NCBI RefSeq assembly: GCF_000975055.1
Contig: NZ_BBRB01000001.1
Coordinates: 310,001-374,000, forward strand
Length of the DNA: 64,000 bases
Origin: Demequina sediminicola
GTDB lineage: Bacteria; Actinomycetota; Actinomycetes; Actinomycetales; Demequinaceae
Direction: 5' to 3'
Shown piece after piece: positions 5,105 through 30,083 of this stretch (its first letter is position 1; the number at the start of each line of letters is the position of its first letter). The notes beneath the pieces are model-generated. The model ran no database searches, had not been told where the DNA came from, and saw nothing but the letters and a program-made list of their open reading frames with translations. The translations under genes were made by a program, and so were the position numbers.

Positions 5105-5967
5105 CCATGATCTCGTTTCAGACCACCCTGTTCCGGGTCCTCAAATGGGTCTTCCTGGCACTGCTGGCCCTCACCGTCATCTTCCCGTTCTATTACATGG
5201 TCGTGATGAGTTTTGTGCCCATCCAGGACCTGCTGCGGGAACCCCTGACACTCGTACCCGAGATTCAGCAACTCACCGTGGAGACGTACCGCCAGGTTGT
5301 TGCCCCAGAGAGCGAAGGCGGCTTTGGCTTCGCCCGCTTCATGCGCAACTCCGCAGTCGTCGCCACGGCAGCCACCCTGCTCACCATGGTGCTGGCCATC
5401 CCCGCGTCCTACGCCATGACCCGTATGCGCTTCGCGGGAAGCAAGAAGATCGGCGCGCTGTTCATCGCCGTCTACATGTTCCCGCAGATCATCATCGCTG
5501 TGCCCGTGTTTGTCGGATTCCAGATCCTCGGACTGGGCACATCATTGGTGGGCCTCACCATCGCGTACATCGCGCTCACAGTGCCCGTCTCGGTGCACAT
5601 GCTGCGCTCATATCTGCGAGGCATCCCCGAGTCGATCGACGAGGCCGCCATGATTGACGGCGCCACCCGCTGGCAAATCATGCGCAAGATTACGGTGCCG
5701 CTGGCGATGCCCACCATCATCTCCACCGCCCTGTACTCGTTCATGATTGCGTGGAACGAGTTCCTCTTTGCACTGCTATTCCTGTCCGCAAAGCCCGAAC
5801 TGTGGACCGTGTCACTGGGTCTGACACGCCTGGCAGATGGACAGGAAGTGTCGCGCACAATTCTGATGGCCGGTAGCGTTCTCATCACAGCGCCGATCAT
5901 CCTGTTGTACGGACTCGTCGAACGCTGGCTGACCGAAGGCCTGACGGCGGGCGCGGAGAAGGGATAA
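5101..5967 (+). CDS. Sugar ABC transporter permease (second, MalG-type)
   Basis: A 288-residue permease with an N-terminal membrane segment (VFLALLALTVIFPFYYMVVM), further membrane spans and the EAA loop DEAAMIDGATRWQIMRKI. It overlaps the first permease gene by 4 bp (ATGA). It is MalG-like in size and would form the heterodimeric channel with the preceding gene product. The ROK regulator starts 5 bp after its stop, so the whole set reads as one operon. Confidence 0.92.
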   Translation: MTMISFQTTLFRVLKWVFLALLALTVIFPFYYMVVMSFVPIQDLLREPLTLVPEIQQLTVETYRQVVAPESEGGFGFARFMRNSAVVATAATLLTMVLAIPASYAMTRMRFAGSKKIGALFIAVYMFPQIIIAVPVFVGFQILGLGTSLVGLTIAYIALTVPVSVHMLRSYLRGIPESIDEAAMIDGATRWQIMRKITVPLAMPTIISTALYSFMIAWNEFLFALLFLSAKPELWTVSLGLTRLADGQEVSRTILMAGSVLITAPIILLYGLVERWLTEGLTAGAEKG

Positions 5968-18563: not shown

Positions 18564-19078
18564 GCGAACGCCTCGACCGGCCCAAGGCTGAACAGTCACG
18601 CCTGTCTCTCAAGCGTTTCAAAAAGAACCGTCCGAGTGACCCCGACCGCATGGGAGCGATGACTGAGGGCATCGCACGCTTTCTGGGCACCACCCGATTC
18701 TTGATCTACCTGACGGTCTTTGTGTTGGTGTGGCTCGTATGGAACACCTGGGGACCCGAGAACCTCCGCTTCGACTCAGCCGCGAACGGATACACCGCGC
18801 TCACGCTAATGCTGTCGCTGCAGGCCTCCTACGCGGCACCGCTGATTCTGCTGGCACAGAACCGCCAGGACGACCGCGACAGGGTTGCCGCGGAGCAGGA
18901 CCGTCAGCGCGCCGAACGCTCCCTCGCTGACACCGAGTATTTGGCACGTGAGGTAGCCGCTTTGCGTCAGGCCGTCAGCGAGACTGCCACGCGCGACTTC
19001 CTGCGCTCAGAACTGCGTGCGCTTCTGGATGAGCTCCAGCGCGACGACGAGAACGAGCAAGCCAAAAACGACGCTTAG
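18560..19078 (+). CDS. DUF1003 membrane protein
   Basis: A 172-residue protein with a basic N-terminus, two membrane spans (about residues 46-64 and 79-100) and a charged C-terminal helix rich in Arg/Asp/Glu. The FLGTTRFLIYLTVFVLVW and YAAPLILLAQNRQDDRDR blocks are diagnostic of DUF1003. It overlaps the MgtE_N/CBS gene by 4 bp (ATGA) and could anchor that partner at the membrane. Its stop overlaps the stop of the convergent gene by 4 bp. Confidence 0.88.
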   Translation: MSERLDRPKAEQSRLSLKRFKKNRPSDPDRMGAMTEGIARFLGTTRFLIYLTVFVLVWLVWNTWGPENLRFDSAANGYTALTLMLSLQASYAAPLILLAQNRQDDRDRVAAEQDRQRAERSLADTEYLAREVAALRQAVSETATRDFLRSELRALLDELQRDDENEQAKNDA

Positions 19079-19695
19079 AACACTTCTCGCTGCGATCGCC
19101 GACGCGCATACGTGTGAGTGGCGGTGGCAGCGCCGCACAGTGCAAGCATGACCGCCACGAGCGCAATCAAGGGCTCATCAAACAACCCTGCAGTCGTGCT
19201 CAGCGGATCTACCAAGGCGTCGTACAGCGCAACTCGAGGATCAGCGGCCGTGGCAACTGCAGCAGCCGACACTCGGCCCACGACGGCCCCGAGCCACAAG
19301 AACACCAACGCCAAGACCATCGAAACGGCCGACGCCGTGACACCGCGGCGCACTCCGCCGGAACGCAGTCCCGCACCAGCAAGAACACCAATCACCACTG
19401 CAGTGGGATATATCTCCCAGCCCACCAGAATGTGCAGGCTCACATAGAGCACAGCACCCAATGCACCCAAGGCCATCCCTGCCACCAGGCCACGAGCCCA
19501 CCGCACACCCCACCGAGCATCGTCCGTCTCCACGAGGGGTAGATCGCTTTGAGGCATGCCCGGAGGCGCGGGGAACCTTCCTGCCCAGTCAGGAATACGA
19601 GCGGTGACGGGATAGATGCCCTCGGGGTACTTCACGTCCGCGACATCCGCGCGCGCTGAATCCGCATCGCTGCGCGCGTCAGTCCCCTCAGTCAC
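19075..19695 (-). CDS. Hypothetical membrane protein
   Basis: About 206 residues, not recognised. A hydrophilic, acidic N-terminus contains YPEGIYPVTARIPDWAGRFP. About four membrane spans follow (GLVAGMALGALGAVLYVSLHI, YPTAVVIGVLAGAGL, ASAVSMVLALVFLWLGAVV, PLIALVAVMLALCGAA), and the tail is basic. GTG at 19695 is preferred for its upstream GGGG; a TTG at 19752 is in frame. It sits between DUF1003 and mrp on the opposite strand. Confidence 0.65.
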   Translation of the reverse strand: MTEGTDARSDADSARADVADVKYPEGIYPVTARIPDWAGRFPAPPGMPQSDLPLVETDDARWGVRWARGLVAGMALGALGAVLYVSLHILVGWEIYPTAVVIGVLAGAGLRSGGVRRGVTASAVSMVLALVFLWLGAVVGRVSAAAVATAADPRVALYDALVDPLSTTAGLFDEPLIALVAVMLALCGAATATHTYARRRSQREVF

Positions 19696-19867
19696 CGTGC
19701 CCCCATACACCTTGGCGTTCCCCTCACGATCGGCCCCACCGTTGCATGTCAACGGCTAGCCGACAATAGCCAACGGACCTGCTGTGACGCACCTCACAGC
19801 ACAAAACTGTGGATAACGGACAAGCCGCCCGTCGAAGAGGACTCCCTATAGCACCTACGATGGGGGC

Positions 19868-20992
19868 ATGCCTATCGTCGATCTAGTTCGCGACGCCCTA
19901 TCCACGGTCATCGACCCCGAGATCCGCCGCCCGATCACTGAGATCGGGATGGTGCGCTCCGTCGACGTCGAAGGATCCACCGCCCACGTTGGCATCGATC
20001 TGACCACCTCCGGTTGTCCCATGAAGGACCGCATCACCGGGGACGTGAAGGACGCCGCCATGCGCGTTGAGGGCATCGACGAGGTCACCGTCGAACTGGG
20101 CGCCATGAGCGAGGAGCAGCGCCTCGAATTGCGCTCCAAGCTCCGCGGCGGCAAGCCCGAACCCGTCATTCAATTCACTCAGCCCGGCAACATGACCCGC
20201 GTTTACGCGATCGCCTCCGGTAAGGGTGGAGTCGGCAAGTCCACGGTCACCGCGAACCTCGCTGCTGCCATGGCTGCCGATGGACTCAAGGTCGGCGTTC
20301 TCGATGCCGACATCTTTGGTTTCTCCATCCCCGGCATGCTTGGCGTTGAAGGACAGCCCACACGGCTCGACGACATGCTGCTGCCGCCCATCGCTCACGA
20401 AGTGAAGGCCGTCTCAATCGGCATGTTCGTGCCCGAAGGCCAGCCTGTGGTCTGGCGTGGACCGATGCTGCACCGCGCCATCGAACAATTCCTCGCGGAT
20501 GTGTACTGGGGAGACCTCGACGTCCTCCTCCTGGACCTGCCGCCTGGCACTGGAGACATCGCGATCTCCGTGGCGCAGCTGCTCCCCCACGCAGAACTCG
20601 TCGTGGTCACCACCCCGCAGTCGGCTGCATCCGGTGTGGCCGAGCGCGCTGGCTCCATCGCGACGCAAACATCGCAGAGTGTTGTGGGCGTCATCGAGAA
20701 CATGGCCTGGATGGAACAGCCCGACGGCTCCCGCTTGCATGTGTTCGGTGAAGGCGGCGGCCAAATTGTTGCTGACCGTCTCTCCAAGACACTCGGCACA
20801 GATGTTCCCGTCCTCGGACAGATTCCGCTCGACATCACGGCCCGTGAAGCCGGCGACGCGGGCACGCCTGTGGTCATCAGTGACCCGGACACGCCTGCGG
20901 CAGACGCCATGCGTGAGGTTGCGCGACGCCTCACTGGGCGTCAGCGTGGGCTTGCCGGGCGGTCGCTTGGCGTGACCCCGGTCAAGAAGTAG
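19868..20992 (+). CDS. mrp: Mrp/NBP35-type P-loop ATPase, Fe-S cluster carrier
   Basis: A 374-residue protein. A MIP18/DUF59 domain covers residues about 1-85, with the conserved TSGCPMKD. The MinD-like ATPase domain carries the deviant Walker A GKGGVGKSTVT, followed by DADIFGFSIPGMLG and LPPGTGD. Relatives carry or assemble Fe-S clusters. The CxxC usually found after VIENM in proteobacterial Mrp is replaced here by MAWMEQPDGS, as in many actinobacterial homologues. The C-terminus is basic. It is a single gene. Confidence 0.92.
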   Translation: MPIVDLVRDALSTVIDPEIRRPITEIGMVRSVDVEGSTAHVGIDLTTSGCPMKDRITGDVKDAAMRVEGIDEVTVELGAMSEEQRLELRSKLRGGKPEPVIQFTQPGNMTRVYAIASGKGGVGKSTVTANLAAAMAADGLKVGVLDADIFGFSIPGMLGVEGQPTRLDDMLLPPIAHEVKAVSIGMFVPEGQPVVWRGPMLHRAIEQFLADVYWGDLDVLLLDLPPGTGDIAISVAQLLPHAELVVVTTPQSAASGVAERAGSIATQTSQSVVGVIENMAWMEQPDGSRLHVFGEGGGQIVADRLSKTLGTDVPVLGQIPLDITAREAGDAGTPVVISDPDTPAADAMREVARRLTGRQRGLAGRSLGVTPVKK

Positions 20993-21060
20993 AGCGCACG
21001 TCTCGGTAGAGCGCACGGCTCAGTAGTACTGCGCCGTTCTCAGTGGGGAACTGAGTCACA

Positions 21061-21546
21061 TCACGCGGAGGTGTGACCGGACTCTCCTGCCGGCGCGGAT
21101 GGCTTTGCCCACCCAGCGATGATTGCTGCGACGAGGCCAGCCAGCAGTGTCCCTGCGCTGACCGGAGGCGTCGCCAGCGCAGTCTGCAACGCAGTGTCAA
21201 AGGACACCATTTCTACTCCGGTGAACCGTGCCAGTGGCAACACGGTCCCGGTCAACGTGCCTACCACTCCCATCAGGTGGACCCCAATGACGGCTGGAAC
21301 AAACGCGCTCAGTTGCGTCTTCCACCCGCGCGCGGACGTCAGGTAGCGCACTGTCACTCCCACGCCGGATGCGACGAGGGCACCGAGGACGATGAGCGCA
21401 AGTGACCCGGTGTCTGCGGGCACCAAGAACGACAGCAGCAGTCCCACCAGGACCGCAACGCCAAGAGCCGTCGCGAACGGACCCATCGCCGTCGAACGCA
21501 CGGAGTCCAGAATGGATGGGCGGGGCTGTGGCGACTGCTCGGTCAT
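21061..21546 (-). CDS. Hypothetical four-span membrane protein
   Basis: 161 residues, not recognised. A short Pro/Gln-rich N-terminus is followed by four predicted membrane segments (FATALGVAVLVGLLLSFLV, LALIVLGALVASGVGVTV, LSAFVPAVIGVHLMGVVGTL, AGTLLAGLVAAIIAGWA). The ATG at 21546 follows AGGAGAG. It lies 60 bp beyond the stop of the minus-strand xthA and may be read with the glyA operon. Confidence 0.7.
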   Translation of the reverse strand: MTEQSPQPRPSILDSVRSTAMGPFATALGVAVLVGLLLSFLVPADTGSLALIVLGALVASGVGVTVRYLTSARGWKTQLSAFVPAVIGVHLMGVVGTLTGTVLPLARFTGVEMVSFDTALQTALATPPVSAGTLLAGLVAAIIAGWAKPSAPAGESGHTSA

Positions 21547-21606
21547 ACGACTCTCCTGGTCTCAGATGAGGACTGGGTGCCTCACCATCGTACGGCGCAG
21601 ATTCCC

Positions 21607-22410
21607 CTAGAGGGTGTAGTCGACCACCAAGGGTGCGTGGTCCGACCAACGCGAGGCATAGTCGGCGGCACGGTCTACGCGGACGTCCGTCACCGCAGCA
21701 GCAAGCGCTTTCGTCGCCAATTGATAGTCGATGCGCCAGCCAGCGTCGTTGTCGAAGGCCTTACCGCGCATCGACCACCACGTGTAAGGACCTGGCTGGT
21801 CGCCTGCATGCACACGGTGCACGTCGACCCAGCCTGCCTCGAGCCAACGGGTCACGTATGCGCGCTCCTCGGGCAAGAACCCGGAGGACTTCAGGTTGCC
21901 CTTCCAGTTCTTGATGTCGTTGTTGCCGTGGGCGATGTTGATGTCCCCCATGACAACGACCCGCTCGTAGGTCTCGGCCAGTGCGTCCAGACGTGCGGTC
22001 ATGAGCTCCAGGAAGGCGTACTTGTCCGCCATCTTCACTGGGTCTTCGGCATTGCCTGAGTGAACGTAGACGCTCACCACGCGCACGTCGCCAGCGGGTG
22101 ACGGCACAGTGGCCTCCACCCAGCGTCCAGTGTGTGTCGCTGCTGTCGCATCGCTGCCCAGCGCTTCAGCACCCAGCACGATGTCCGTCAATGGCTCGCG
22201 AGAGAGGATCGCGACACCGTTGCGGCCCTTCTGCTCACTGATGTGGTCGGCCACATGCCAGGTCTCGCCCAGCTGCCCGGCCACCAAATCCTGCGGTGCG
22301 CGTACCTCCTGCAGGCACACGACATCGGCTTGGACCTGGTCCAACCAGTCGCCCATGCCCTTACGCATCGCTGCACGGACACCATTGACGTTGACAGAAG
22401 CAATACGCAT
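21607..22410 (-). CDS. xthA: Exodeoxyribonuclease III (AP endonuclease)
   Basis: A 267-residue EEP-fold nuclease of DNA base-excision repair. Motifs in order are [18 protein letters not shown] (catalytic Glu), SVYVHSGN, VVMGDINIAH (Asp/Asn), RIDYQLAT and WSDHAPLVVDY (His). The ATG overlaps the folD stop by one base (TAATG), so it is translationally coupled to the one-carbon genes. Confidence 0.93.
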   Translation of the reverse strand: MRIASVNVNGVRAAMRKGMGDWLDQVQADVVCLQEVRAPQDLVAGQLGETWHVADHISEQKGRNGVAILSREPLTDIVLGAEALGSDATAATHTGRWVEATVPSPAGDVRVVSVYVHSGNAEDPVKMADKYAFLELMTARLDALAETYERVVVMGDINIAHGNNDIKNWKGNLKSSGFLPEERAYVTRWLEAGWVDVHRVHAGDQPGPYTWWSMRGKAFDNDAGWRIDYQLATKALAAAVTDVRVDRAADYASRWSDHAPLVVDYTL

Positions 22411-23297
22411 TAGCGGATACCGGCCTGACGTTCACTGGCTTCCACCACGTTGGCAAGCAACATGGCGCGGGTCATTGGCCCCACTCCCCCAGGGTTGGGT
22501 GAGAACCATGCAGACTTGGCGACTGCATCGGCTGAGATGTCACCGGCGACCTTGGACTTGCCGGTCTCCGGGTCCGTGATGCGTGACACGCCCACGTCGA
22601 CCACCACGGCACCGTCCTTGACCATGTCCGCACCGATGATGTCGGGCACACCTGCGGCGGCAACAATGACGTCGGCGACGCGTGTGTGAGACGCAAGGTC
22701 CTCGGTGCCGGTGTGGCACAGGGTCACGGTGGCGTTGACGTCCTTACGGGTAAGCAACAGGCCGATGCTGCGGCCCACTGTCGTACCGCGGCCCACGACG
22801 ACCACGTGTTTGCCTCGCAAGTCGACACCGTGACGTTCGATCAGTTCGATGATCCCCTTTGGTGTGCACGGCAGGCTCGACTCGACCGGCTCGGACGTGC
22901 GCAACACGAGGCGCCCCAAGTTGGTGGGGTGAAGCCCGTCCGCGTCCTTGTCAGGGTCGACCAGTTCGAGCACACGGTTGGTGTCGATGCCGTCGGGCAA
23001 GGGCAACTGAACAATGAAGCCGGTGCAGGTCGGGTCATCGTTGAGACGCTGAACTGCCGCTTCGATCTCCTCCTGGGAGGCCGATGCGGGAAGGTCCTCG
23101 CGAACGGAGGTGATGCCCACTTCTGCGCAGTCGCGGTGTTTGCCGGCGACGTACCAGGTGGAACCTGGGTCCTCGCCGACGAGCAACGTGCCGAGGCCCG
23201 GAGTCACGCCGCGGTCCTGAAGGACCGCGACGCGCTCGGCAAGCTCGGACTTGATGGCTGCCGCAGTGGCCTTGCCGTCGAGTCGCTGGGGGGCCAT
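22410..23297 (-). CDS. folD: Bifunctional methylenetetrahydrofolate dehydrogenase/cyclohydrolase
   Basis: A 295-residue enzyme interconverting 5,10-methylene-, 5,10-methenyl- and 10-formyl-THF with NADP. Visible are [21 protein letters not shown] (catalytic Lys), [10 protein letters not shown], the Rossmann [14 protein letters not shown] and the C-terminal [13 protein letters not shown]. It is coupled to glyA upstream by TAATG and to xthA downstream. It supplies one-carbon units to PurN/PurH, which are encoded elsewhere in the window. Confidence 0.95.
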
Positions 23298-24589
23298 TAC
23301 TGCTGCAGGCCCGGGTACAGCGGGAAGTTGTCTGCGAGCTTCTTGATGCGTGCACGCAGTGCGTCGATGTCCGCGCCACCCTTAAGGGCGGTGGCGATCA
23401 CGTCGGCAACCTCGGTGAACTCTTCCGCGCCAAAGCCGCGGGACGCGAGTGCCGGGGTGCCCAGGCGCAGGCCGGAGGTCACCATCGGGGGACGTGGGTC
23501 GAAAGGCACCGCGTTGCGGTTGGAGGTGATGCCGACCTGGTGCAGGAGATCTTCGCCGTCCTGACCGGTGAGTTCGGAGTTGCGCAGGTCAACGAGGACC
23601 AGGTGAACATCGGTACCACCGGTGACGACGTTCACGCCAGCCTCAATGGCATCGGGCTGCGTGAGGCGTTCCGCGATGATGCGTGCACCCTCGAGGACGC
23701 GCTCCTGGCGCTGCTTGAACTCGGGAGCAGCGGCGGCCTTCAGCGCGGTGGCCTTGGCGGCAATCACGTGCATCAGCGGGCCACCCTGCTGGCCAGGGAA
23801 GACCGCAGAGTTAAGCTTCTTGGCGTATTCCGTGTCGCGCGACAGGATCATGCCGGAGCGTGGTCCGCCAATAGTCTTGTGGATGGTCGTGGACACAACG
23901 TCCGAGTGCGGCACGGGGCTGGGGTGCAGGCCCGCGGCGACGAGGCCCGCGAAGTGGGCCATGTCGGTCCACAGCTTGGCGCCCACCTCGTCCGCGATGG
24001 AGCGGAATGCTTCGAAGTCGATGTGGCGGGGGTATGCCGACCAACCGGCGATGATGACCTCAGGACGCTCGGCGAGAGCCTGCTCACGCACCTGCTCCAT
24101 TTCGATACGGTGCGACTGCTCGTCCAAACCATAGGCAGCAACTTCGTAGAGCTTGCCGGAGAAGTTCAGCTTCATGCCGTGCGTGAGGTGACCACCGTGA
24201 GCCAACGACAGGCCCATGATCTTGTCACCGGGGTTGATCAGCGCGTGCAGCACCGCAGCGTTAGCGGTGGCACCCGAGTGGGGCTGGACGTTCGCGTACT
24301 CAGCACCAAAGAGGCTCTTGGCGCGGTCGCGTGCGATGTTCTCCGCAACGTCGACCTCTTCGCAGCCACCGTAGTAGCGGCGGCCGGGGTACCCTTCCGC
24401 GTACTTGTTCGTCAGGACCGAACCCTGAGCCTGCAGCACCGAACGGGGAACGAAGTTCTCCGAGGCGATCATCTCAAGGTAGGTGCGCTGGCGGTCGAGT
24501 TCCCGGTCAAGTACCTGGGCAATCTCGGGGTCAAAATCCTGCAGCGTGGCGTTCATCACGTCTGCGGTGGCGCTGGAGTCGGTGCTCAT
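23297..24589 (-). CDS. glyA: Serine hydroxymethyltransferase
   Basis: A 430-residue PLP enzyme converting serine and THF to glycine and 5,10-methylene-THF. Visible are [49 protein letters not shown] and the PLP Lys in [16 protein letters not shown]. The ATG at 24589 is chosen for the upstream AAAGGG; the frame is open to 24655. It is the first gene of glyA-folD-xthA and is preceded by a ZTP riboswitch, so expression should respond to ZMP/ZTP when 10-formyl-THF runs short. Confidence 0.95.
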
Positions 24590-24636
24590 GCGTTCCCTTT
24601 CTGAAGGCGGCGGGCCGCCGTGTGTCCGGTGACTTC

Positions 24637-24709
24637 GGCCCAGGCGTACGACCAACAGTCTGAGAAAATGCCGCTCCCTCGTGGTGTCCCACTGCGCCAG
24701 TCACGACGC
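24637..24709 (-). promoter_or_regulatory. ZTP (pfl) riboswitch upstream of glyA
   Basis: Read on the minus strand, the leader has GCGTCGTGACTGGCG, a P2 hairpin GTGG-GACA-CCAC, GAGGGAGCGGC, a variable linker and the 3' block CGCCTGGGCC. These are the conserved blocks of the ZTP aptamer, in order and spacing. The aptamer ends about 48 nt before the glyA ATG. Between them are a GC-rich hairpin (about 24606-24620) and CCTTC, which could pair with the AAAGGG ribosome-binding site, so translational control is plausible. The downstream glyA-folD genes are classic targets of this class. Confidence 0.88.
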
Positions 24710-24714
24710 GCGCC

Positions 24715-24723
24715 AGTCTAGCA
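24715..24723 (-). promoter_or_regulatory. Extended -10 promoter candidate for glyA operon
   Basis: TGCTAGACT on the minus strand (24723-24715) matches an extended -10. It would place the transcript start right at the 5' edge of the ZTP aptamer, about 26 bp after the acyltransferase stop. No convincing -35 was found. Confidence 0.45.
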
Positions 24724-24748
24724 ACGTGAACGCACCCCCGCATCTACG

Positions 24749-25765
24749 TCAACGGCGCACCAGATCACGCCAAAACATGTAGTCCATGAGGGGACGCGTA
24801 GCTCGTACCACCGCCGGCCTCGACACCACGTAGGAGAATCCCGCAGCAAAGGCCATTAGTCCCAAGAGCATCAGCGATTCCGGCCAGTCGACGCCATAGC
24901 CGTCGAGGTGCGCGGGGTACAACACCAGGGGGTGGAGCAGGTAGACCGGCAGTGTCGCAGCCCCGATGGACGCCACCACGGTGTTGCTACCGCCACTGAG
25001 GGCGAGGATTGCCAGGGTCAGCACGGCACCCGCGACAAGTACGGCTGCACGTTGCGCCATCCCCTCCCCGTTGGTCTGGCCGATGTCGGCATAGCTTTCC
25101 GAAAGGAAAAAGATGGACCGAATCACGGTGTCCTCGCTAAACCAACTCCACACGAGCGCACCAGCCAAAGCGGCGACGGCGAGCACACGCATGCGGGCTG
25201 CCCGGATACGCGGCCACCACGAGTCACGCCACATCAGTCCAGCCGCGAAAAACGGAGCGAAGCACACGATGCGCTCCACAGAGAGTTCCTGTCCCACCAT
25301 TCCCACGGTTCCCAACGCGACACCCGCGATCGCGAGCCCCGGCACTACCCACCACGAGGAGCGCAACAGGGGCGCGCTCAGGCGCCAGGCTCCCAATGCC
25401 ACGAGGTACCACAGAGTCCACGAAGGGGTCAGGAAACTCACAGAAAGTGGCTCGCCCGTTAACGCTGCGTTGAAGACTGCTTGCGCCAACGTGAACACCA
25501 CATAAGGAAAAGCCAACTTTAGGAACGTGCGTCCCGGTGCCCATCGGCTGGAGTAACGGGTCACGTAGCCAGAGACAAAGACAAACGCCGGCATGTGAAA
25601 CATGAACAGCCATTGCGCGGCCGTTTCGGCGAACTGACCCTCCAGGGGCTCGATGGCATGGCTGAACACCACCAGGATGATGAGCACGCCAGCAAGGGAA
25701 TCGACCGAGCGATCACGCTCGGTACGGCGAACACCTGCCGTGTGCGAAGTAGATGCAGTCACCAC
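24749..25765 (-). CDS. Acyltransferase 3-family membrane protein
   Basis: A 338-residue integral membrane protein with about ten spans. The N-terminal RDRSVDSLAGVLIILVVFSHAI has the conserved Arg/Asp and His of the family, and FMFHMPAFVFVSGYVTRY follows. It resembles fucose-4-O-acetylase-type enzymes that O-acetylate surface polysaccharides. The start GTG at 25765 has no strong ribosome-binding site. No polysaccharide cluster is adjacent, so the substrate is unknown. Confidence 0.82.
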   Translation of the reverse strand: MVTASTSHTAGVRRTERDRSVDSLAGVLIILVVFSHAIEPLEGQFAETAAQWLFMFHMPAFVFVSGYVTRYSSRWAPGRTFLKLAFPYVVFTLAQAVFNAALTGEPLSVSFLTPSWTLWYLVALGAWRLSAPLLRSSWWVVPGLAIAGVALGTVGMVGQELSVERIVCFAPFFAAGLMWRDSWWPRIRAARMRVLAVAALAGALVWSWFSEDTVIRSIFFLSESYADIGQTNGEGMAQRAAVLVAGAVLTLAILALSGGSNTVVASIGAATLPVYLLHPLVLYPAHLDGYGVDWPESLMLLGLMAFAAGFSYVVSRPAVVRATRPLMDYMFWRDLVRR

Positions 25766-25798
25766 ACCAGTGTGCGATGGTGTCGTTCTCAGAGCGAC

Positions 25799-26332
25799 TC
25801 AGTTATCGCCGCGCACCGCATTCACATCGGCGTCATCGTCAACGATTGCGCCTGATTCGAGGACCTTTCGCAAGTATGCGTAGGTAAGGTCACCGTTCAC
25901 CTGGTCAAACTGGTAGTCGTACCCAGCCTTGTTGTACATCGAGATGTTGTGCTTCGAGTTCTGGCCTGTAAAGACCCATACTTCACGGGTCGACTCCGGC
26001 AAATAGCCCAGCACCGCAAACAGCAACTGCGTTCCGATGCCTTGGCCCTGCAGGTCAGGAACCACTGCGAGACGACCGATGGTGGCCTTGTCCCCCTCAA
26101 GCCCCACACGAATCGACCCAATGAGTCGATGCCCTTCCCAAGCACCCAAGGTGACGACGTCGTCGGACTCAAGGTCCACAATCAACTCGTCAAGGCTCTG
26201 CGTCAGCGCAGGAATGTTCGGATCGTTGTACAACTGCGCTTCAGTGACGAACGCGGCACGCCGCACCGTCAAGAGCTCACCTGCTTGGCTCGCACCAATC
26301 ACGTCAATTCGCACGCTGTCTGACTCGGTCAT
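25799..26332 (-). CDS. GNAT-family N-acetyltransferase
   Basis: A 177-residue acetyl-CoA-dependent transferase. The acetyl-CoA motif A is visible as RLAVVPDLQGQGIGTQLL, with VWVFTGQNSKHNISMYNKAGY in the C-terminal half. Start ATG at 26332 has a weak AGG upstream. The acidic tail (VDDDADVNAVRGDN) is unusual. The substrate cannot be inferred. It ends 33 bp upstream of the acyltransferase gene on the same strand. Confidence 0.85.
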   Translation of the reverse strand: MTESDSVRIDVIGASQAGELLTVRRAAFVTEAQLYNDPNIPALTQSLDELIVDLESDDVVTLGAWEGHRLIGSIRVGLEGDKATIGRLAVVPDLQGQGIGTQLLFAVLGYLPESTREVWVFTGQNSKHNISMYNKAGYDYQFDQVNGDLTYAYLRKVLESGAIVDDDADVNAVRGDN

Positions 26333-26453
26333 AGTCCTATCGTGGCACGTTTCCGCCCTCGGGTCAGACGCCACGCTTAGGTACCTCGTGCCTGCGACCA
26401 TGCACCGCACGCCCCCCGCGAACCACCTTGACGCGCGCCATTACTGTAGGGGC

Positions 26454-27266
26454 ATGAACGCCGTCCCCCTCGAGCCCCGCCTGGGCCGCCAGAACCCCAC
26501 AGTCGCTGAGGTAAAGCTTGAGGGACAGCCCGTCCATATCCGCACCCGCGCCAACGCAGAGCACTGGTCCGCTGATCTGTGGTGGCGCCACCTCTCCCCC
26601 TACATCTCAACCGCCGCAATCCGTGCAGGACTGAGCGCCAACAGCGTCTCCCTCATCATGGTGGCGTGTGGGTGGGCAGCCGCACTCAGCCTTCTCACTG
26701 GAAGTTGGTGGGGCGCACTACTGGCCGTATTCTTCGCTCACGCCCAGATGCTCATTGACGCAGCCGACGGCGAGGTCGCCCGATGGCGCCGCACCATGTC
26801 ACCGCGGGGAATCTTCATCGACCGGCTCGCCCACACCACCACCGAATCGTTCATGCCGCTGTGCTTCGGCATCGGATGGGGCCTCGCCCACCCTGACCAG
26901 GTGTGGCAGGGAGTCGCCGGCGGTGCAGTCCTGGCGATGTTTGTCCTCATCAACAAGTCCGTCAACGACGCCGTGGCAGTGTCCCGCGCATACGCCGGCC
27001 TCGGCAAGCTCCCCGACACCCAAGCGGCTGGAACCCCCAAGCCGGGCCTCGTGGCCACCGCACGCCGAGCAGCACGACTCCTGCCCCTGCATCGGCTCTA
27101 TCACTCCGTCGAGCAATCCCACCTGTACTTTGTCGCGATGCTCATCTCGCTTGCCGTTCCCGCAGTGTGGGGATGGACCCTCGTCGCGCTTGTGGCGATC
27201 ACGCCCCTCGTGGTGGTCGGACACGTCGCGTCGGTCTGGCAGTCGAGCCGCCTCACCGCGTCCTAG
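26454..27266 (+). CDS. CDP-alcohol phosphatidyltransferase-family protein with a D-to-H active-site change
   Basis: A 270-residue membrane protein. The family motif spans residues 102-126: D102, D105-G106, A108-R109, G118, D122, but His126 stands where the last Asp normally is. Several hydrophobic segments surround it. Such enzymes move a phospho-alcohol from a CDP-alcohol to an acceptor such as an inositol phosphate or diacylglycerol. The GIFIDRLAHT variant also occurs in uncharacterised bacterial relatives, so the enzyme may be altered rather than dead. The ATG at 26454 is chosen by family alignment and an upstream GGGG. purU follows by 32 bp. Confidence 0.82.
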   Translation: MNAVPLEPRLGRQNPTVAEVKLEGQPVHIRTRANAEHWSADLWWRHLSPYISTAAIRAGLSANSVSLIMVACGWAAALSLLTGSWWGALLAVFFAHAQMLIDAADGEVARWRRTMSPRGIFIDRLAHTTTESFMPLCFGIGWGLAHPDQVWQGVAGGAVLAMFVLINKSVNDAVAVSRAYAGLGKLPDTQAAGTPKPGLVATARRAARLLPLHRLYHSVEQSHLYFVAMLISLAVPAVWGWTLVALVAITPLVVVGHVASVWQSSRLTAS

Positions 27267-27298
27267 CCCACCGGCGCGAATCGTTACGCTGTAGCACT

Positions 27299-28153
27299 AT
27301 GAGCACCGCCGAGACCCGCTACGTCCTCGCACTGTCATGCCCCGACCAGCCCGGCATCGTCCACGCTGTCTCAGGCTTGCTTGCCGAGCACGGAGGAAAC
27401 ATCACCGAGTCTCAACAGTTCGGCGATCCCGACACTGGACTCTTCTTCATGCGGGTCGAGGTCATGACGGTCGCTGCAGATAGCGAACTGCGCGCCGCGG
27501 TCACCTCCCTCGCAGAGCGATTCTCGATGACGTTCAAACTCGACCGTGCGGGACGCCCCATGCGCACACTCGTCATGGGCTCGAAGTCCGAGCACTGCGC
27601 CAACGACCTCCTCTTCCGCGAACGCGCCGGAACTCTCCCCATCGACATCGTCGCCATGGTGGGCAACCACACCACGCTGAGCGATCTCGCGGGCTTCTAC
27701 GGGAAGAACTTCCACCACATCCCAGTCACCCCCGAGACCAAGGCCGACGCCGAAGCGGAGCTCCTCGCGCTCGTGGCAGAACTTGATGTGGAACTCGTTG
27801 TCCTCGCCCGCTACATGCAGATCCTCTCCCCCGAGCTCTCCGCAGCGCTGCACGGGAAGGCGATCAACATCCACCACTCGTTCCTGCCGTCATTCAAAGG
27901 CGCGCGCCCGTACTTCCAGGCCCACGATCGCGGCGTCAAACTCATTGGCGCCACCGCGCACTATGTGACGAGCGACCTCGACGAAGGTCCCATCATTGAG
28001 CAGGAAGTAGAACGCGTCGATCATTCGCACACGCCCCAGAGCCTCACCGCCGTGGGAGCCGACGTGGAACGCCGCGCACTCGCACGGGCCGTGCGCTGGC
28101 ACGCAGACCACCGCATCCTCCTCGACGGCCACCGCACCATCGTCTTCCGGTGA
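27299..28153 (+). CDS. purU: Formyltetrahydrofolate deformylase
   Basis: A 284-residue enzyme hydrolysing 10-formyl-THF to THF and formate. The N-terminal ACT domain (ALSCPDQPGIVHAVSGLLAEHGGNI) is followed by a formyltransferase-type catalytic domain with the conserved INIHHSFLPSFKGA and a downstream GATAHYVTSDLDEGPIIEQ. The Asn-His-Asp triad is intact. It balances the folate pool with glyA/folD, encoded 3 kb away. ATG at 27299. Confidence 0.95.
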   Translation: MSTAETRYVLALSCPDQPGIVHAVSGLLAEHGGNITESQQFGDPDTGLFFMRVEVMTVAADSELRAAVTSLAERFSMTFKLDRAGRPMRTLVMGSKSEHCANDLLFRERAGTLPIDIVAMVGNHTTLSDLAGFYGKNFHHIPVTPETKADAEAELLALVAELDVELVVLARYMQILSPELSAALHGKAINIHHSFLPSFKGARPYFQAHDRGVKLIGATAHYVTSDLDEGPIIEQEVERVDHSHTPQSLTAVGADVERRALARAVRWHADHRILLDGHRTIVFR

Positions 28154-28277
28154 CGAACGGGCCATTCACCCACGCCCGTCCCCGCTTCAGTAGCGAAGGC
28201 GCGGTTCACTAGCGAGCACAAAGTTTGGCAGCAACGACGGGCTGCGCTCATGCAACCGGACGGGAAGCCGCCTCACG

Positions 28278-29162
28278 CTAGAGGATCAGCAATCGACCGT
28301 TCTTGGCGCAGTAGCAAATCGTGTTCCACCCCATCTTGGGTTGCGATCGCGGACAATGACGCCATCCCTCGCGGAAGCCACCAAACCATGCGCTGATGGC
28401 CTCACGCTCCTTGGGTCCGCGGATCAGTTGGAGCAACGCCCACAACACGGTGTAGACCACGGCGAGCAGGCCAGGGAGGTTTCGCCGTGCAACCCACACC
28501 CGGTTTCGCGCCGAAAGGCGGTAGTAATCCTGGTGACGCGTAGGCGCCTTGACTGGGTGGTACACGTGCAGATCGGGGTCATAAATGACCTTGAGGCGTT
28601 GCTCCCACACCCGCCAGGCAAGTTCAATGCCCTCATGGGCGTAGAAGAAATCAGCTGGCCAACCGCCCGCCTCGATGAACGCCGACCGACGCACGGCGAC
28701 CGCGCCTTCCCACAGCGAAAACACTGAGAGCGGCTCGTCGGGAACTCGAGAGCCGATGCGTGGCACCCAGCGCGACGGAGGAGGATTGCCCTCCCGGTCA
28801 GAGACACGGCCCTGCAGCGCGCCATACTCGGGGTTCTCCTCGAAACGCGTACGCACATCCCTCAGGAAATGATCGTCGGCAAGCTCAGCGTCATCGTCCA
28901 AAAAGAACAACAGTTCGCCAGAGACGTGCTCGACACCCGCGTTACGCCCGGCCGGAATCCCCACGTTGTAGGGCAGAGCCAAAGTCCGCACCCCAGGGAA
29001 ACCGATCGCTTCCTTCGGATCCCAGCCATTTCCCACGACAAGGATGTCCATCGAGACATCCGTCTGGCGCATGACGGAACCAATCGCTTGGGCAAGCCCC
29101 TTTTTCCGCTTACCCATGGTGAGAATGATGACCCCAAAATCCGGTGCGGAGGTAGGGGACAT
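28278..29162 (-). CDS. Family 2 glycosyltransferase
   Basis: A 294-residue GT-A enzyme. Features are VIILTMGKRKKGLAQAI, LPYNVGIPAGRNAGV, the metal-binding LLFFLDDDAEL and the YAHEGIELAWRVWEQ region with the likely catalytic acidic residues. A hydrophobic stretch (LLAVVYTVLWALLQLI) near residue 235 may associate with the membrane. It probably builds a surface glycan or glycolipid. No sugar-nucleotide genes are adjacent. It converges on purU; the 124-bp gap between them shows no clear hairpin. Confidence 0.85.
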   Translation of the reverse strand: MSPTSAPDFGVIILTMGKRKKGLAQAIGSVMRQTDVSMDILVVGNGWDPKEAIGFPGVRTLALPYNVGIPAGRNAGVEHVSGELLFFLDDDAELADDHFLRDVRTRFEENPEYGALQGRVSDREGNPPPSRWVPRIGSRVPDEPLSVFSLWEGAVAVRRSAFIEAGGWPADFFYAHEGIELAWRVWEQRLKVIYDPDLHVYHPVKAPTRHQDYYRLSARNRVWVARRNLPGLLAVVYTVLWALLQLIRGPKEREAISAWFGGFREGWRHCPRSQPKMGWNTICYCAKNGRLLIL

Positions 29163-29207
29163 AAACAGAGTTTACTGGCCGTGGCGCTAGGTCAGGTGCG
29201 CCAGGAA

Positions 29208-30083
29208 CTACGCAAGGCCCAAAAGTGCGCGGGGAACGGTCGACGCGGCCGCCACGGCCTGGTCCCGCGGCACGCCTGCCTCGACACACACCTCAATCGC
29301 GCGCGTCAGCGTCAACGTTGAGCCCGCGATAGTGTCCGTCCCCTTCAGGACTGCTTTGCCGTTGCTCACGGTGACGTCAAACTTCCCGAGCCGGTACTCA
29401 CCCTCAGGTGCCGCCGCAGCGGCCATGGCATCAGTGACAAGCACAACCCGCCCAGGTGCAGCGCGGAACACCGCGGCAATGAGCGCCGGGTCAACATGAA
29501 TGCCGTCAGCGATGATTTCAATGTGGGCACGCTCATCGTCCATTGCAGCGCCCACAGGCCCGATTTCCCGACCAACGATGCCCTTCATCGCATTGAAACC
29601 GTGTGTGAGGAGGGTCGCACCGCGATCAAACGCCTTGCGCGTCAGTTCCGCGTCGGCCTCCGTATGTCCCACTGCGACAACGACGCCCGCGTCAACAAAA
29701 CGCTCGATCGCATCGAGGGCGCAGTCCCGCGCAGGATCCATCGTGATCTGCCGGATAGCGCCACCGCCGGCGGCAAGAATTCGCTCAACGACATCAGGCG
29801 TGGGATCGATCAAGTTCTCTGGAGCGTGAGCGCCCTTACGCTCCAGGGCCAAGAACGGCCCTTCAAGGTGGATTCCCTCAATCGACGCATCCTCAGACAT
29901 CGCCTCACGGACCACACCCATCGCGCGATCAGTCTCGTCCAAGGGCAACGAGACTAGCGACGCCACGACCGCTTCAGTACCGGTGGCGCGGTGCGCGGCT
30001 GCGGCGGCGAGAGTGTCCTCGACGGTGCCGCCGAAACTGTATCCGCCGCCACCGTGGTTGTGAATGTCTGTCAGGAGCGCCAT
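29208..30083 (-). CDS. nagA: N-acetylglucosamine-6-phosphate deacetylase, compact form
   Basis: A 291-residue amidohydrolase removing acetate from GlcNAc-6-phosphate. The first metal motif DIHNHG starts at residue 6, and HLEGPF, GHTEAD, LTHGFNAM, DGIHVD and the catalytic Asp in LVTDAM follow. Typical NagA is about 380 residues with a beta-sandwich made of both termini; here both halves are missing while the barrel is complete. ATG at 30083 follows GAGG; no upstream family-like sequence was seen in any frame. It is the last gene of the amino-sugar operon, 10 bp after nagB. Confidence 0.88.
   Translation of the reverse strand: MALLTDIHNHGGGGYSFGGTVEDTLAAAAAHRATGTEAVVASLVSLPLDETDRAMGVVREAMSEDASIEGIHLEGPFLALERKGAHAPENLIDPTPDVVERILAAGGGAIRQITMDPARDCALDAIERFVDAGVVVAVGHTEADAELTRKAFDRGATLLTHGFNAMKGIVGREIGPVGAAMDDERAHIEIIADGIHVDPALIAAVFRAAPGRVVLVTDAMAAAAAPEGEYRLGKFDVTVSNGKAVLKGTDTIAGSTLTLTRAIEVCVEAGVPRDQAVAAASTVPRALLGLA

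Follow-up and report, generated by a model that had tools for sequence, protein, structure and literature searches.

A predicted ZMP/ZTP riboswitch upstream of glyA-folD-xthA in Demequina sediminicola

Introduction

In the ZMP/ZTP riboswitch class (pfl motif, Rfam family RF01750), glyA and folD are among the usual targets, according to the portion of PMC2864571 that was available. From what is known of the class, ZMP/ZTP would accumulate when 10-formyl-THF is short, and binding of ZMP/ZTP would stabilise helix P3 together with the pseudoknot and so raise the expression of glyA and folD. The ligand work is recounted in an excerpt of PMC7266159. Covariation models that join the ZTP aptamer with a terminator are covered by an excerpt of PMC13273304, which also describes Actinomycetota as having nearly no transcriptional variants, a statement that apparently concerns the fluoride riboswitch. 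Among the open-licence papers searched, none linked this riboswitch class to xthA or to Actinobacteria.

The locus described here lies in a stretch of 64,000 nucleotides of the Demequina sediminicola genome (hereafter, the window). It shares with the class a full-length model match above the gathering threshold, helices P1 and P3, the GGCG:CGCC pseudoknot and the targets glyA and folD. It differs in that its leader has no U-tract terminator 3' of the aptamer, and in that the unit is closed by xthA, a gene absent from the targets named in the available text of PMC2864571.

Results

A search of the window with cmscan detected RF01750 over the entire model (1–86 of 86; table 1). The E-value was 2.8e-4 for the 64 kb searched with the whole Rfam library, 4.8e-5 when positions 19000–30000 were scanned, and 2.5e-6 when this family alone was run against the 2.46-Mb genome. 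This was the sole Rfam match in the window at the gathering threshold. No further Rfam match was found in 19000–30000 at E-values up to 1, and no second RF01750 match in the genome at E≤1. In 14 control genomes, RF01750 matched in five at E≤1 and exceeded the cut-off in two. The P1 helix of the window contains three non-standard pairs in the cmscan alignment. Purine or one-carbon genes follow the aptamer in the form of glyA and folD. Judged by its sequence, the element is an ordinary member of the known ZTP riboswitch class, and is predicted to bind ZMP/ZTP. The initial annotation, which had proposed a ZTP riboswitch before glyA-folD-xthA, was thus borne out by the covariance model; the limits of the span it gave (24637–24723) were a few bases off and took in the -10-like element.

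Table 1. Positions of the predicted features in the window (all on the minus strand).
Feature	Position	Strand	Evidence
Extended -10-like element: TG (24723–24722) and TAGACT (24720–24715)	24715–24723	minus	sequence; leader comparison
ZMP/ZTP riboswitch aptamer, RF01750	24631–24714	minus	45.8 bits (gathering threshold 39)
Strand A1 (AGTCACCGG), just 3' of helix P3	24626–24634	minus	GTCACCGG nearly invariant in 36 leaders
Strand A2 (ACGGCGGCC), pairs with A1 or B2	24613–24621	minus	leader comparison
Strand B2 (CCGCC), pairs with GGCGG of A2	24606–24610	minus	leader comparison
CCTTC, earlier proposed as anti-Shine-Dalgarno	24603–24607	minus	not conserved
AAAGGG, likely glyA ribosome-binding site	24595–24600	minus	sequence
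glyA, serine hydroxymethyltransferase	23297–24589	minus	NF000586, PF00464
folD, methylene-THF dehydrogenase/cyclohydrolase	22410–23297	minus	NF010789 above cut-off
xthA, exodeoxyribonuclease III	21607–22410	minus	TIGR00633 and TIGR00195 above cut-offs

RF01750 was detected at E≤0.1 in 46 of 47 genomes of the family, including that of the window, and 42 of these matches were above the cut-off. The best locus was fetched for each of the other 45 genomes; one (L075) stops at the end of its contig, leaving 44 testable relatives. Secondary structure was compared in 36 leaders, comprising the window and 35 relatives (L066, L068, L069, L070, L072, L073 and L074 were left out). The helices and the pseudoknot of RF01750 were conserved across these relatives, the proportion of paired cells being 75.3% in P1, 81.3% in P2, 93.9% in P3 and 100% in the pairs that we take to form the pseudoknot. 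All pseudoknot pairs and four of the five P3 pairs were invariant, while two-sided changes were found in six of the 12 P1 pairs.

The covariation score exceeded all 500 shuffles; the number of paired cells exceeded all but two, and the number of cells with a two-sided change all but 12. The remaining two of the five measures did not exceed the shuffles, as the count of pairs with two-sided changes was reached by 222 of the 500 and that of further pair types by 285. The outer part of P1 is weak, with five positions unpaired in 13–28 of the 36 rows. In P2, two pairs do not form in 13 rows, for which misalignment is the probable cause. In four loci (L069, L072, L073 and L074) the linker that joins P1 to P3 is longer, with the match spanning about 103–109 nt, and all but one of these loci score below the cut-off. 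Six weak second matches under the cut-off (L076–L081) occurred in family genomes, and searches with nine window proteins placed none of these next to them.

The extended -10 element noted earlier at the edge of the aptamer was compared in 44 leaders including that of the window (L050 and L062 were dropped, as their leaders are identical to L049 and L061). A -10-like hexamer ending 13–14 nt before the CTGGC block was present in 43 of the 44 leaders, L072 being the exception; the hexamer is TAGACT in 39 leaders and is preceded by TG in 34. No leader column upstream of -6 carried more than 0.9 bits. Against this stands a standard -35/-10 scan of positions 20900–25000, in which no promoter-like site was found (0.4 expected) and no -35 consensus appeared. 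The conserved -10 element suggests that the transcript probably starts at the edge of the aptamer.

The gene names glyA, folD and xthA were confirmed by NCBIfam and Pfam. One base is shared at each of the glyA/folD and folD/xthA junctions, and since neighbouring genes overlap in this way the three very likely form a single transcript. In all 44 testable relatives the aptamer is followed by glyA and then folD. In these 44 loci, xthA was found within the fetched stretch in 39 and lay no more than about 350 nt from folD in 36, in agreement with the gene order first described for the window. The gap was longer in L032, L033 and L040; no xthA was found within the fetched stretch of L051, L053 and L058, and the stretches of L043 and L074 were cut short. 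Among the best 80 of 587 matches, the closest named XthA was that of Demequina globuliformis (89%).

A frame of 161 aa (21061–21546) lies 60 nt beyond xthA. It matched no Pfam or NCBIfam family at E≤0.001, and at E≤10 only Pfam matches under the cut-off appeared. In many relatives this frame is 1.3 kb or more past xthA, and in many Demequina relatives it is kept near mrp. In L037 it is separated from xthA by a 413-aa frame on the minus strand, presumably a galactokinase to judge by eye, without a database hit. Because the 161-aa frame stands apart in this manner, the transcription unit may well end at xthA. Another one-carbon gene, purU (27299–28153), lies upstream on the opposite strand, beyond three intervening genes; several other genera have purU nearer to glyA and likewise divergent.

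Downstream of P3 the leaders carry GGTCACCGG (strand A1) and CCGGCGRCC (strand A2), conserved at about the level of the aptamer. In the 36 leaders 98.6% of the A1:A2 cells are paired around a standing A.C mismatch, with little variation and no two-sided change. Helix A (A1:A2) is shorter in the window than in the other leaders, and was not better than shuffles when leaders were tested singly. Diverged versions of A1, A2 and B2 were seen in L069, L072, L073 and L074, where the last A1:A2 pair is A-T for G-C and the mismatch has become G-C, a single event in one clade.

Of 43 leaders (the window and 42 relatives), 41 can form a hairpin B (A2:B2) of at least five uninterrupted pairs, which ends 15–22 nt before the start codon. 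By a looser rule, 17 different arm pairs were found, the stem chosen in three rows was an inner one (at 34, 37 and 54 nt), and the 6-pair stem of the window would close a loop of two bases. In L066, L068 and L070 the loop contains inserts, and the outer GGCGGC/GCCGCC stem is kept. Tested singly, hairpin B had only a modest advantage over shuffles, with a median fraction of 0.07 and 14 of the 43 leaders falling below 0.05. The nearly invariant sequence of A1 and A2 downstream of the aptamer can thus take part in either of two hairpins, A or B, which are mutually exclusive and end just 5' of the ribosome-binding site. As the leaders are related to each other, their comparison is suggestive of an exchange between the two.

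Partition-function folding gave no consistent change in Shine-Dalgarno (SD) access between the bound and the free state, with 25 of the 45 rows showing a more open site when bound. The stretch from the SD sequence to the AUG was more open when bound in 30 of the 45 rows, at very low probabilities. These folding models of SD access neither support nor refute translational control.

Discussion

A ZTP riboswitch can now be placed on glyA-folD in a Demequina-like genome. The riboswitch identity, the start site and the operon layout given in the initial annotation have stood up to the covariance model and to comparison with relatives; the anti-SD pairing and a regulatory purpose for xthA have not. 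It is fairly likely that a ZTP riboswitch occupies the 5' leader of the glyA-folD-xthA transcript, and that control is exerted at translation initiation rather than at an intrinsic terminator. In this leader the 3' strand of P3 would run almost straight into A1, and A1 and B2 would compete for A2; because of this arrangement, the ligand would most likely shift which of the two hairpins, A or B, predominates immediately 5' of the ribosome-binding site. From the leader sequences we therefore favour translational control relayed by the two hairpins. We further suggest, tentatively and with considerable doubt, that the Demequinaceae ZTP leader represents a platform undescribed for the class. In such a platform, A1:A2 would exchange with A2:B2 without a U-tract terminator or direct masking of the SD sequence, a hairpin would be put at or removed from the upstream edge of the ribosome landing site, and P3 stacked on A1 would act as a ligand-dependent clamp.

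Two other readings of the leader were weighed against exchange between hairpins A and B. Masking of the glyA AAAGGG by CCTTC, the translational control envisaged earlier, begins from letters that are indeed present in the window, where CCTT:AAGG pairing is possible and would compete with hairpin B. Yet an SD complement of at least 4 nt occurs in the spacer of only six of 43 leaders and anywhere after P3 in 12, and none of the 43 did better than shuffles (median fraction 0.89, none below 0.05). CCTTC was consequently rejected as an anti-SD platform for want of conservation, and masking by this segment is highly improbable. Action on transcription, through a hairpin terminator lacking a U-tract or through Rho entry gated by hairpins A and B, is unlikely to a lesser degree. 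Many pfl/ZTP RNAs overlap terminators, according to the available part of PMC2864571, and folding of the window sequence indicates that GGGCC of P3 can pair with GGCCC of A2, as in terminator-type members. However, in no leader of the 43 do the 8 nt that follow hairpin B contain five or more U (the mean is 0.72 and the maximum 3), for which reason a conventional intrinsic terminator was rejected. Moreover, the two terminator-like sites in 20900–25000 (1.7 expected) are both on the plus strand, and the near-constant position of hairpin B, 15–22 nt before the start codon, also speaks against action on transcription. With no U-tract terminator among them, the 43 distinct leaders offer material for working out how actinobacterial ZTP riboswitches act.

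The initial annotation had also drawn attention to xthA, a DNA-repair gene, as coming under ZMP/ZTP control. The overlap between the genes makes this control likely. When 38 relatives and the window were searched (L038 was left out, as the start of its match is partial), none of these 39 loci had the extended -10 pattern within 200 nt upstream of xthA, which is weak evidence because control stretches of 400 nt also lacked the pattern. It is a different matter whether the control of xthA is a selected purpose. Folate shortage would lead to more uracil in DNA and to abasic sites, so that ZTP might raise glyA and folD and, with them, a nuclease acting at abasic sites; as a bolder addition, the ZTP leader could be seen as making abasic-site repair respond, through xthA, to a folate alarmone. 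Such a purpose would fit the folD-xthA overlap in the window, the lack of a similar -10 before xthA and the finding that 17 of the 19 family genomes in an order-wide sample have, among the matches listed, xthA no more than 350 nt from folD. This sample contained 248 genomes, 173 of them with RF01750 at E≤0.01, and outside the family both genes were present among the matches listed (the higher-scoring folD and xthA matches) in 87 of 229 genomes, 24 genomes being left unassigned ("other"). Among these matches, however, xthA lay within 350 nt of folD in three of 32 genomes with an aptamer before glyA-folD and in five of 31 without any RF01750 match; within 5 kb the figures were 25 of 32 and 26 of 31. 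Three Brachybacterium loci (L127, L128 and L130) keep glyA-folD-xthA but lack RF01750 at the gathering threshold, and the motif GCCTGGRC is likewise missing from the 320 nt upstream of glyA. In L168, xthA and folD-glyA converge. Within the family itself xthA is not seen within 350 nt of folD in eight of 44 loci, two of them cut short. Since adjacency to folD outside the family is no commoner with an upstream aptamer than without any match, xthA looks like a passenger, and the linkage of folD and xthA, being independent of the riboswitch in the rest of the order, belongs to a wider neighbourhood. A selected purpose is accordingly quite improbable. From the gene arrangement, xthA is probably co-transcribed as a passenger in the riboswitch operon, and gene neighbourhood accounts for this link to DNA repair more plausibly than designed regulation does. 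A regular-expression match had suggested a ZTP aptamer immediately upstream of xthA in L168; it was discarded, as by eye the aptamer-like blocks precede glyA on the other strand, and L168 has no RF01750 at the gathering threshold.

In other families of the order, many of the loci sampled have the aptamer followed by glyA and then folD, a GGTCAC-like stretch being frequent 3' of P3, and xthA is usually further off than in the family of the window among the matches listed. Several genomes of these families have an additional aptamer behind a PurN-like frame. In L088, L089, L091, L092, L094 and L102 this frame, probably purN, matches the formyltransferase part of PurU at 31–39%, and from its position the second aptamer may control purH. 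In an uncultured Cellulomonas (L138), a guanidine-III riboswitch (RF01763, 61.5 bits) was found between folD and xthA at positions 5119–5181.
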